DNA of 64,000 bases, taken from Thermoplasmata archaeon (GTDB taxonomy: Archaea; Thermoplasmatota; Thermoplasmata; Lutacidiplasmatales; UBA184). The stretch covers positions 24,583 through 88,582 of the forward strand of contig JAKAVQ010000010.1 of NCBI GenBank assembly GCA_021817245.1, read 5' to 3'. Under the pieces are notes generated by a model. It had not been told where the DNA came from and did no database searches. It saw only the letters and a list, made by a program, of their open reading frames with translations. Below are positions 1 to 3,709 of the stretch, in pieces. The translations under genes and the position numbers were made by a program. The stretch's first letter is position 1, and each line of letters starts with the position of its first letter.

Positions 1-1366
1 ACGCGACCCATCGGGACGCACCGAGCGCTTCGGCTCCCTCGCGGACCGACGGAGAGAGACCGGTGAGCGGGATCTCGATGCTCTGGAGCGCGAACGGGAG
101 CGCGAGGATCGACTGGCTGACGATCACCAGGATCCACACGTTCGGCGCCCCTCCGAGCAAGGGCCGCCAGAACTCGGCGAGCGCGACCGCGAGCACGACC
201 GGCGAGAGCAGAAGGGGGACGAACAGCACGAGGCCGAGCGCGCCCGCCCGCGCGGGACGCCCCTGGACCGCGTACCCGAGCACGATCCCGAGGAGGAGGG
301 CGACGACCGCGGCCCCCGTGGCGAAGAGGAGCGTGTTCGCGACCAGCCCGACCGCACTGACCCCGAGGCGCGCCGTCGTCGCGTCCGAGAAGAGGGCGAC
401 CCAGGCGCTCGCGGGTCCCCGGCTCCCGATCGGCGCGAGCGTGCGGTCGAGGACGGCCGCGAGGAGGACCACGACGCTCCCGAGGACGAGCGCGGTCTCG
501 GCCGCGAGGGCGACGCCGACGACCGACCGCCCGGGGACGGAGCGCCGGCGCGGCCGGGCCCGGCCCGAGGCGCCGCGAAGGCGCCCGAGCAGCGCGAGGT
601 AGGCGACCGTCGGAAGGAGGAAAAGCCCGACCATCGCGAGCGCGAGCGCGCCGGCGGCGGTCGGCTCGAGCGTGAGGGACGCGAGCGACCAGATCCGGGC
701 CTCGACCGTGTAGCATCGGGGACCGCACAGGAGCAGGGGCGGCGCGAACGACAGCGACGAGAACAGGAACGTGAGCAGCCCTCCCGCGGCCGCGCCGACC
801 CAGGTCGGGGCCGCCCATACGTCGACGTACGCGCGCCCCGGCGAACCGCCGAGCGAGGCGACTGTCTCCTCGAGGTCGCGCGGAGCGCTCTCGCCACCGG
901 TCGAGGTGAAGAGGACGACGATCGGGACGTTGAAGGCGAGGTTCGCGACGACGATCGCGGGAAGGCCGGAACCGAACGTCCCGAACCACGGCACGGCCGA
1001 CGAGAGCACCCCGTCCGCGCCGAACAGGTCGAGGACGCCGAAGACGACGATCAGGCTCGGGAGGAGGAACGGGACCAGGAGCAGCGAGCGCAGGATGTCC
1101 CGCCCGGGAAAGGCGTATCGGCCGAAGAAGACCCCGGCGGGGTACCCGAGCGCGACCGCGAGCAGCGCCGACAGGCCCCCCTGCTCGAGGGAGTTCTCGA
1201 TCGACGCGACGTTGAGGGGGCTCGAAACGATGGCGACGATCCCGCCGAGACCCCCGGCCGCCGCGGCGGTGCTCGCGAACAGGACGACCGCCGGCACGAG
1301 GGCGAACAGGACGACGAACGCGAGCGCCGGCGAGAGCGCGAGCATGTCGCGCCCGGAGATCCTCAT
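1..1366 (-). CDS. thiP: Thiamine ABC transporter permease (ThiP-like), partial
   Basis: Integral-membrane permease of an ABC importer, cut by the window edge after about 455 residues; it is absent from the ORF track because no stop lies in the window. My translation of the minus strand gives many hydrophobic segments starting at [17 protein letters not shown] and two permease halves. The second half reaches an EAA-type loop (GAEALGASRWV) at the very edge, which in this family contacts the ATPase. Two fused permease domains of about 530 residues are usual for ThiP. The start ATG overlaps the stop of the upstream binding-protein gene (ATGA), so the two are co-translated. The thiamine assignment rests mainly on the TPP riboswitch ahead of the operon; an iron-type permease of the same fold would look similar. 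Confidence 0.85.
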   Translation of the reverse strand, partial: MRISGRDMLALSPALAFVVLFALVPAVVLFASTAAAAGGLGGIVAIVSSPLNVASIENSLEQGGLSALLAVALGYPAGVFFGRYAFPGRDILRSLLLVPFLLPSLIVVFGVLDLFGADGVLSSAVPWFGTFGSGLPAIVVANLAFNVPIVVLFTSTGGESAPRDLEETVASLGGSPGRAYVDVWAAPTWVGAAAGGLLTFLFSSLSFAPPLLLCGPRCYTVEARIWSLASLTLEPTAAGALALAMVGLFLLPTVAYLALLGRLRGASGRARPRRRSVPGRSVVGVALAAETALVLGSVVVLLAAVLDRTLAPIGSRGPASAWVALFSDATTARLGVSAVGLVANTLLFATGAAVVALLLGIVLGYAVQGRPARAGALGLVLFVPLLLSPVVLAVALAEFWRPLLGGAPNVWILVIVSQSILALPFALQSIEIPLTGLSPSVREGAEALGASRWVA

Positions 1367-2529
1367 GGCGGCAGGAGCTGGTTCGCGAGCTGCTCGTACG
1401 TCGCGACCCAACCCGGAAGGGAACCGGCGACCGCGTCCGGCGTCGTTAGGGCGTTCAGCGGAACGATCGTGGACGGCGGCACCGCGGCGCCGAAGACGGC
1501 CGGCAGAGGGATCGTCGCGTTCGCGGGGTATTCCCACTCGTTCGTCGGGATCTGGGCCTGGACGGCCCCGCTCAGGAACCACTGCTCGAACTCCTGGTCG
1601 AGGGTCAGGTGGCGGGAGCCGGCCACGATCCCGATCCCGTAGACCGTCCGCCAGCCGTACGCGGTGCCGTTCCACCAGCTCACGGTCGAGTTGAACTGAC
1701 CGGCCTGCCCGTAGAAGGCGGCGTAGGCGGGGTCGGTCGAGTAGCTCACGACCATCCGGGGGTTCCCCGGGGGTGTCGAGAACTGGCCGAACGCGGTGCC
1801 CCAATCGGGCGCCGGCTTGTAGGCGAGGTGTGGGAGCATGCTCGTCCAGAACGACGTCCAGTTCTCGTGGAGGACCTGGAGGTAGTATTCCACTTCCCAG
1901 ACGAGGAACTCCTCGCCCGTGATGTCCGTGGTCGGGTCCTCGTAAAGGAACTGGGCCGCCCAGCTGGCGTTCGTCGCCAGCTCGGGGAAGCTCGCGGTGG
2001 CGACCGCGCCCCGGGTCGCCGCGTAGAACGACGCGTTGTAGTCGATCGCCAAGTATCCCCACTCGTACGGGACCGCTCCGAAGGCGGGGCTCAGCTCGCT
2101 CGCGAGCGCCGGCGACACGTTGGCGAGCTCGGGAGGGGCGTACGGGACGAGGAGATGGTGGGCCTCCGCCTGGGGGGCGGTGATCTCGTCGAGCCCGATC
2201 ACGAGGTCCGCCGCGGGGGCGTTCGCCTGCTGGAGGAGCGTGTTCACCAGCGTTCCGCTCGGGTACTCCACGTCGATGCGCACGTGGTGGGCGCTCTCGA
2301 ACGGCGCGAAGACGCTCTCGAACGCCGGCGTCCCGGCGCCCCCGAAAAGACTGGGGTAGGTGTAGACGACGAGCGTGGGTTCGCCGAGCACCGAGTTCAC
2401 GTAGAGCGCAATGCCGACGCCGGCCAGGACGACAACGACCGCCACGGCCGTGGTGGTCACCACGCGGCCGAGCCTCCCGGGCGCTCGCAGGCGTCGTGGC
2501 GGAGCCGGAGCGACGGGGGGTCCGGTCAT
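1363..2529 (-). CDS. thiB: Thiamine ABC transporter substrate-binding protein
   Basis: Extracytoplasmic solute receptor of 388 residues that would deliver thiamine or a phosphate ester to the ThiP permease. A membrane anchor lies at about residues 24-46 ([17 protein letters not shown]), followed by a binding domain beginning [13 protein letters not shown], the usual opening of the ThiB/TbpA family (VxTYDSF type). Later segments such as [15 protein letters not shown] and [13 protein letters not shown] also fit that family. Tyrosines and tryptophans are frequent, as in thiamine-binding pockets. The gene is first in the operon, sits directly behind a TPP riboswitch and overlaps the permease gene by four bases. 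The ATPase subunit must lie beyond the window or elsewhere. Confidence 0.9.
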
Positions 2530-2561
2530 CCTCGACCGCGACCGGTCGAGAGTCCTCTCAA
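2530..2561 (-). promoter_or_regulatory. Expression platform of the thiB riboswitch
   Basis: Read on the minus strand, a GAGAG-GA-CTCTC hairpin is followed by a perfect 7-bp hairpin CTCGACC/GGTCGAG that ends against the thiB start codon. The last CTC of the first hairpin is the first CTC of the second, so both cannot form at once. The distal hairpin would bury the bases just before the AUG. No U-run follows, so control of translation initiation is more likely than termination. The regulatory direction is inference. Confidence 0.6.
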
Positions 2562-2567
2562 GGGCGG

Positions 2568-2672
2568 CATCGCAATCCCTTCGCGGGCATTATCCCGTGC
2601 AGGTTCGTGGGGTCGACGGGACGCTGTCCCGTCCTCTCAGCCGGTGCCCAGCTCCCCCTGCGGGACCTCGGA
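2568..2672 (-). promoter_or_regulatory. TPP riboswitch (THI element)
   Basis: The minus strand carries the invariant pieces of the thiamine pyrophosphate aptamer in order. A GGGG of P2 is followed by a GCTGG/CCGGC hairpin and CTGAGA. Next comes a perfect GACGGGAC/GTCCCGTC side hairpin, then ACCCC closing P2. Finally there is GAACCTG, a CGGG-ATAATG-CCCG hairpin and GCGAAGGGA. CTGAGA and the GGATAAT...GCGAAGGGA block are the diagnostic pyrimidine- and pyrophosphate-binding elements. The aptamer ends about 40 bases before thiB, which fixes the likely substrate of that transporter. TPP riboswitches are known from Thermoplasma-type archaea, so this is also a mild taxonomic hint. Confidence 0.93.
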
Positions 2673-2723
2673 CGACCCGCCGGGAATTAAGGTTTGAGGC
2701 GGGCGCGGACGCGGGCCCACCGT

Positions 2724-2761: not shown

Positions 2762-3709
2762 ATGGCCGACCTGATGGGAAAGCTCCGGTTCGGGACCGAG
2801 CTCGTGAAGCGCGGGTTCGCCCGCATGCAGCAGGGGGGCGTGATCATGGACGTCACGAACGCCGACCAGGCCGGGATCGCGGAGGAGGCCGGCGCTGTCG
2901 CCGTGATGGCGCTCGAGCGCGTCCCTTCCGATATCCGGGCGATGGGCGGCGTGGCCCGGATGGCCGACCCCCAGAAGATTCGCGAGATCCGGGAGCGGGT
3001 CTCGATACCGGTGATGGCGAAGTGCCGCATCGGCCACACCGCCGAAGCGCAGATCCTTCAGGCCCTCGCGGTCGACATGATCGACGAGTCCGAGGTGCTG
3101 ACGCCGGCCGACCCGTTCCAGCACGTCGACAAGAAGCCGTTCAAGGTCCCATTCGTCTGCGGCGCCCGCAACCTCGGCGAGGCGTTGCGGCGGATCGACG
3201 AAGGGGCCGCGATGATCCGGACGAAGGGCGAGGCGGGCACCGGCAACGTCGTCGAGGCGGTGCGGCACATCCGCCAGATGAACTACGACATCCGCGAGGT
3301 CCTCGGTCTGAGCAAGAAGGACGTCGCCGCGTGGGCGAAGAAGGAGCGGGTCTCCGAGGCGACCGTCCTCGAGGTCCGCGAGCTGAAGCGCCTGCCCGTC
3401 GTCAATTTCGCGGCGGGCGGGATCGCGACACCGGCCGACGCGGCGCTCTGTCGGGAGCTCGGGGTCGACGGCGTGTTCGTCGGCAGCGGGATCTTCAAGT
3501 CGCAGCATCCGATGAAGGTCGCCCGGGCGATCGTCGAGGCCTCGTTGCATTACGACGACCCCGACGTGCTCGCGCGAGTCTCGACCGGTCTCGGCGAGGC
3601 GATGCGCGGCCTCGACGTGGCGACCCTGCCCGCCGAGCAGCTGCTCCAAGGCCGGGAGTCGGAGCCGCTCGACTCGGGCGCGCGACGGCATCCCCCGACC
3701 GCGGCGTGA
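2762..3709 (+). CDS. pdxS: Pyridoxal 5'-phosphate synthase subunit PdxS
   Basis: Cytosolic TIM-barrel subunit of the DXP-independent vitamin B6 pathway; it joins ribose 5-phosphate, glyceraldehyde 3-phosphate and ammonia into PLP. The product has 315 residues, slightly over the usual 290-300. Family blocks are plain: [19 protein letters not shown] near the N terminus, [14 protein letters not shown] with the first catalytic lysine, [18 protein letters not shown] with the second, and [15 protein letters not shown] near the phosphate site. The ORF track extends the frame upstream through the promoter, but homology begins at [11 protein letters not shown]. The ammonia-supplying glutaminase PdxT is not next to it. 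No operon partner is evident; the next gene is 64 bases away. Confidence 0.97.

Follow-up and report, generated by a model that had tools for sequence, protein, structure and literature searches.

In TPP aptamers with an internal ribosome-binding site, translation is attenuated directly (Barrick and Breaker 2007, PMC2258182), and the B12 riboswitch of Mycobacterium tuberculosis ppe2 acts through a coupled upstream open reading frame (uORF), uPPE2, for which termination-reinitiation has been shown (Kipkorir et al. 2024, PMC11260477). Stop/start overlaps can also link consecutive genes: in H. volcanii and E. coli, strict coupling was seen for 13 of 14 overlapping gene pairs tested (Huber et al. 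2019, PMC6728339). In the open-licence full-text literature we found neither a described expression platform of an archaeal riboswitch nor an archaeal riboswitch with a uORF relay, subscription papers lying outside the scope of this search.

Here we present a comparative analysis, based mostly on metagenome-assembled genomes, of a 64,000-nucleotide stretch of DNA (the window) from a Thermoplasmata archaeon of the order Ca. Lutacidiplasmatales, in which an uncultured soil archaeon appears to place an RNA sensor of vitamin B1, with predicted TPP binding, before its thiamine-import genes. The locus has the aptamer architecture, the conserved core and the location before thiamine transport genes of the THI element (RF00059), and differs from it in a closing helix P1 that appears not to be maintained and in a start codon that follows the aptamer at a constant distance and opens a uORF, not the gene. 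As in ppe2, the riboswitch is directly followed by a short ORF whose stop overlaps the gene start (AUGA); the ligand and the domain of life differ, and the ppe2 evidence is experimental in one species, whereas ours is comparative across an order. The aptamer of M. tuberculosis metE contains a translated short ORF (PMC11260477), resembling a second frame that opens here in aptamer loop L5. Attenuation by an internal ribosome-binding site (PMC2258182) shares with our locus a purine-rich 3′ aptamer strand beside a start codon. This likeness is clear in families f31, f19 and f27, where a genuine Shine-Dalgarno (SD) sequence lies inside the aptamer beside the start of the gene; the aptamer of the window has no SD of this kind, its order having a weak one and a start codon belonging to the uORF. 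The overlap of consecutive ORFs is that of the archaeal coupled pairs (PMC6728339), but the upstream partner is a 14-codon leader under a riboswitch.

The aptamer and its genomic setting

2558–2668, minus strand: TPP riboswitch aptamer (Rfam span, RF00059 above gathering score; core GGGGAGC to AGGGA at 2657–2575)
2683–2695, minus strand: BRE/TATA-like promoter element AAACCTTAATTCC, at the A+T peak of relatives
1363–2529, minus strand: thiB, thiamine ABC transporter substrate-binding protein, 388 aa (TIGR01254, phmmer)
1–1366, minus strand: membrane protein in thiP position, assigned from sequence and position, running off the window

The Rfam covariance model RF00059 matched positions 2668–2558 of the minus strand over model positions 1–105, scoring 61.5 bits where the gathering score is 54.3, and this was the single match in a genome-wide search. 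In the alignment, the conserved TPP core (CUGAGA, GAACC, L5 UAAUGCC and AGGGA) was entirely present, and it is near-invariant in relatives. On these sequence grounds we regard the minus-strand element as a real archaeal TPP riboswitch aptamer, as a preliminary description made from the letters alone had proposed. Its accompanying remark that riboswitches are uncommon in archaea fails for this lineage, in which 97 of the 106 genomes searched in the order have one RF00059 aptamer each, and 193 of 400 sampled genomes of the class Thermoplasmata have a match.

The description also placed thiB downstream, and this assignment holds: the product scored 110.1 bits against the TIGR01254 cut-off of 93.4, and its best PDB match by phmmer was 2qry, a thiamine-binding periplasmic protein. 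The membrane protein that follows starts with an ATGA overlapping the thiB stop and had no family match of its own; an ABC ATPase ORF in thiQ position comes next, outside the window (L102:4372-5340 has PF00005 and TOBE_2). Control of these genes by the aptamer is predicted from their position behind it.

Relatives display an A+T peak at −33 to −28 (and −37/−36) from GGGGAGC, within GC-rich surroundings. From the typical archaeal TATA spacing, the predicted transcription start is some 5 nt upstream of the aptamer GGGGAGC and helix P2, so that P1 can have few base pairs. In the window, 4 bp of P1 are possible (CGCA/UGCG), and native 5′ and 3′ strands paired no better than cross-genome combinations (p=0.45); P1 was thus rejected as a switching helix.

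On the opposite side of the promoter, a divergent pdxS (PF01680, PLP synthase) occupies 2762–3709 of the plus strand. Its transcript is probably leaderless, because a TATA-like CTTATAGA lies about 30 nt before the ATG, and would have the intergenic region in common with the thiB promoter.

Pairings between the aptamer and the thiB start

2531–2550, minus strand: distal hairpin CTCGACCGGTCGCGGTCGAG, abutting the thiB start codon and lying inside the uORF (pairing scan and cross-genome test)
2548–2559, minus strand: proximal hairpin GAGAGGACTCTC, not conserved (−1.8 kcal/mol)
2541–2552, minus strand: common arm CUCUCGACCGGU, either 5′ arm and loop of the distal hairpin or partner of the aptamer core (scan, shuffles and register test)
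2634–2645, minus strand: aptamer core strand ACCGGCUGAGAG, complementary to the common arm (duplex −19.2 kcal/mol)

The preliminary description had pointed to two hairpins that have a CTC in common and would exclude each other, the distal one against the start codon. Both are present, with the CTC at 2550–2548, and 1 nt separates the distal hairpin from the thiB ATG at 2529; in 90 of 94 loci, with thiB starts assigned by position, it lies 0–3 nt from the thiB start. At −13.8 kcal/mol, as opposed to only −1.8 kcal/mol for the proximal 12-mer, the distal hairpin also came out as the strongest pairing when 786 segment pairs were scanned without bias for native against cross-genome combinations (z −8.7), where aptamer helix P3, the positive control, reached −8.2. 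It exceeded cross-genome pairings with p=0.0005, in permutation tests that are inflated by relatedness and accompanied by mononucleotide shuffles. Within the order, the comparison of sequences indicates that this hairpin is conserved and co-varies, and it corresponds to the start-region hairpin of a sequestor/antisequestor platform.

The proximal element fared differently in the same comparison of relatives. Local hairpins occurred at its place about as often in relatives (34%) as in shuffles (29%), the test against cross-genome pairings gave p=0.0075 or 0.55 depending on how the place was delimited, and the nearest relative (97% ThiB identity) reads GACAGGACTCTC there, without a fold. Exclusion involving the CTC stands from the earlier claim, but the proximal hairpin was dropped as the switching partner, since it is at chance level in the order and the nearest relative has lost it.

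As judged from sequence, the aptamer core is a better rival for the common arm in the window's genus, but not clearly in sister genera. The arm, CUCUCGACCGGU in the window and CUCUCCGCCGG in its genus-typical form, is complementary to the core strand ACCGGCUGAGAG, which contains the TPP-recognition motif, so that the folded aptamer together with the distal hairpin competes with core-arm pairing. In the 786-pair scan, the pairing of the aptamer arm CACCGG with the hairpin loop was the next (third) independent signal (z −5.4). Across 73 genomes of the genus, the core-arm duplex had a mean z of −2.48 against shuffled arms, in a model that is partly post hoc, as pairings for further testing were chosen after results had been seen. 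Its positions were paired in 71.5% of cases in register and in 34–51% when slid. Two loci of relatives (L049 and L061) changed both sides (AUCGG with CGAU), keeping the duplex while nearly losing the hairpin. The rival folds of the window differ by 0.4 kcal/mol, so that a ligand could tip the balance. Pairing that is mutually exclusive with the aptamer is found in the window's genus, but was not seen in sister genera g4–g7 (mean z 0.3 to −0.85), and part of the complementarity may be a consequence of a purine-rich core and a purine-rich 3′ arm of the hairpin.

Three loci of genus g2 (L039, L078 and L081) have a hairpin that still abuts thiB and no uORF; in two of them (L039 and L078), the 5′ arm of the hairpin is complementary to the aptamer strand AGGGAA. 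This pairing of the hairpin arm with the 3′ aptamer strand, good by eye in g2, had no native excess in uORF-bearing loci (p=1.0) and was discarded.

Reading frames of the leader

2526–2570, minus strand: conserved uORF of 14 codons, start at fixed +5 spacing, stop TGA overlapping the thiB ATG (ATGA)
2558–2590, minus strand: mini-ORF from the AUG of aptamer loop L5, with a conserved stop (TGA, 2560–2558) overlapping the uORF start

Of 98 loci, 93 have a start codon (ATG in 87, GTG in 6) exactly 5 nt downstream of the aptamer GGGA. In 92 of these 93 it opens a uORF of 12–21 codons, usually of 13–15, that closes at or beside the thiB start. The base following the thiB start codon depends on this frame, being A in 68 of 75 loci where it makes the uORF stop (ATGA) and G in all 16 others. 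On the ThiB tree, the uORF frame changed at least 4–6 times and the association was never reversed in independent pairs; with about 4–6 independent switches, a strict sign test on this tree fell short of significance. Conservation of the uORF peptide (LSAG) is not claimed, since the same codons form the hairpin arm. The uORF is preceded by AAGGGA, a weak SD-like sequence of −4.7 to −6.0 kcal/mol compared with −10.6 kcal/mol in families f19 and f31. The anti-SD, taken from relatives, is canonical (GGAUCACCUCCU); a 16S search of the window's own genome found nothing. Overall, a uORF ending at the start of the transporter gene suggests that ribosomes are relayed into thiB.

The second frame is opened by the AUG of L5 in 82 of 95 loci, and by another in-frame start codon upstream in the remaining ones. 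The distance between its stop and the uORF AUG is at most 16 nt in 92 of 93 loci, with +10 the position in 75, and the stop is TAG, TGA or TAA in 42, 35 and 16 cases. About 30 changes of stop identity are needed on the ThiB tree, and neighbouring positions are near random. An RNA-structural cause was ruled out, as the three stops interchange and TGG never occurs at the site. A stop kept through so many changes of identity points to ribosomes reading the leader, and we consider it the strongest such sign. The same nesting is found in family f19, where the L5-frame stop overlaps the uORF start as ATGA in six loci. The usual TPP consensus GCGUAGGGA, as in loci of family f25, would carry an in-frame UAG that is lost in this order (GCGAAGGGA/GCGCAGGGA).

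The L5 frame may either feed the uORF or rapidly end stray initiation. Conservation of a stop in this frame would suggest ribosome entry into the ligand-binding domain itself. A full three-step relay, in which ribosomes would start at the AUG of L5, the ligand-docking loop, in an empty aptamer, stop at most 16 nt from the uORF AUG, restart on the uORF, stop where thiB starts and restart again on thiB, is a speculative extension that we hold to be doubtful; if true, translation of the aptamer would compete with TPP binding.

A putative OFF switch, its rivals and other outputs in the class

We favour, with moderate confidence, a TPP-sensing translational OFF switch that would act on thiB through the coupled uORF. 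In this model, the transcript would begin at the 5′ edge of the aptamer, which would fill the 5′ UTR. Without TPP, the arm CUCUCGACCGGU would pair with the core ACCGGCUGAGAG and open the aptamer, leaving the uORF AUG 5 nt behind it accessible and keeping the thiB hairpin apart; ribosomes would then translate the 14 codons, traverse the hairpin region, terminate at the UGA that overlaps the start codon of thiB and reinitiate at this codon. In the presence of TPP, the folded aptamer would hold the purine-rich strand and the region beside the uORF AUG, and the freed arm would close the hairpin against the thiB start, so that both ribosome entries would fall. The aptamer, the spacing of the uORF start, the uORF stop at thiB, the conservation of the hairpin, the core-arm complementarity (in the genus) and the L5-frame stop come from sequence comparison, to which the model adds, as inferred components, the transcription start, uORF translation, reinitiation, OFF polarity and TPP binding. 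It predicts that thiB depends on uORF translation. By analogy, the uORFs of the Thermoplasmatales-like family f19, with overlapping stop and start behind the same aptamer, count in its favour. Against it count the weak SD-like AAGGGA, the sister genera g4–g7 without core-arm complementarity, the uORF missing from g2, a P1 unsupported as a conserved helix and a frame/base association derived from few switches.

Ordinary sequestering would need only part of these features: in the presence of TPP, the distal hairpin would be free to block the start of thiB, and in its absence the core would hold the arm, thiB being initiated directly and the uORF being irrelevant or untranslated. Apart from pairings within the aptamer, the hairpin and the core-arm complementarity indeed have the best support, and genus g2 has a hairpin before thiB and no uORF. 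We nevertheless judge this reading unlikely, as it accounts neither for an RTG at exactly +5 with exchange of ATG and GTG, nor for the termination of the uORF at the beginning of thiB in nearly all loci, nor for the way in which the base behind the thiB start codon depends on the frame, nor for the conserved stop in the other frame; moreover, the GGAGG-like hairpin arm sits 0–2 nt from the AUG, a distance too short for it to serve as an ordinary SD.

Direct occlusion, in which the folded aptamer would bury the ribosome-binding site of the +5 start and the hairpin would be a passive barrier making thiB uORF-dependent, relies on a recognised mechanism, a ribosome-binding site inside a TPP aptamer (PMC2258182), and agrees with the apparent lack of P1 conservation. 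The aptamer strand of families f31, f27 and part of f19 has the sequence GGAGGGA, which is a real SD (strong in f19 and f31, at −10.6 kcal/mol), and the main gene (ThiB or an MFS transporter) starts directly 3–7 nt behind it. In the window's order, however, this SD is degraded to AAGGGA or CAGGGA and the core-arm complementarity would stay unexplained, which makes the explanation quite unlikely there.

A transcriptional variant, in which uORF translation would shield the nascent RNA from FttA-dependent termination and the riboswitch would set read-through into thiB, draws on the attribution of archaeal polarity to FttA (PMC12548453) and on the idea that a translated leader could shield the RNA, but the stop/start overlap leaves no untranslated gap to shield, and we consider it very improbable. 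Scarcely credible, finally, is the switch formed by the two neighbouring hairpins with the common CTC, as first envisaged: an extended proximal hairpin (UUGAGA GGAC UCUCGA) does belong to the minimum-energy fold of the window's downstream region, but the conservation results above go against it and it has no link to the aptamer.

Beyond the order, the survey of the class, which leaves out most f25 loci as unrecognised by the search pattern, revealed about 22 loci, nearly all in f19, in which a uORF of 12–40 codons terminates between −11 and +3 nt relative to the main start. By eye, the outputs of families f11 and f25 look like SD-sequestering hairpins. Together with the direct starts and the uORF relay, this apparent SD sequestration would bring to at least three the output types on the same aptamer, and the lineage offers about 100 diverged natural variants of one switch in the order, with more in the class.

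The SD-containing hairpins seen by eye lie about 30–50 nt behind the aptamer, in L104, L110 and L145–L147 (f11) and in L136, L140 and L141 (f25); f11 also has a GGCAGGA stretch whose complement lies at the beginning of the thiB coding region. In other Thermoplasmata (among loci L103–L190), TPP aptamers precede MFS transporters (PF07690), which are candidate transporters of thiamine or its precursors.
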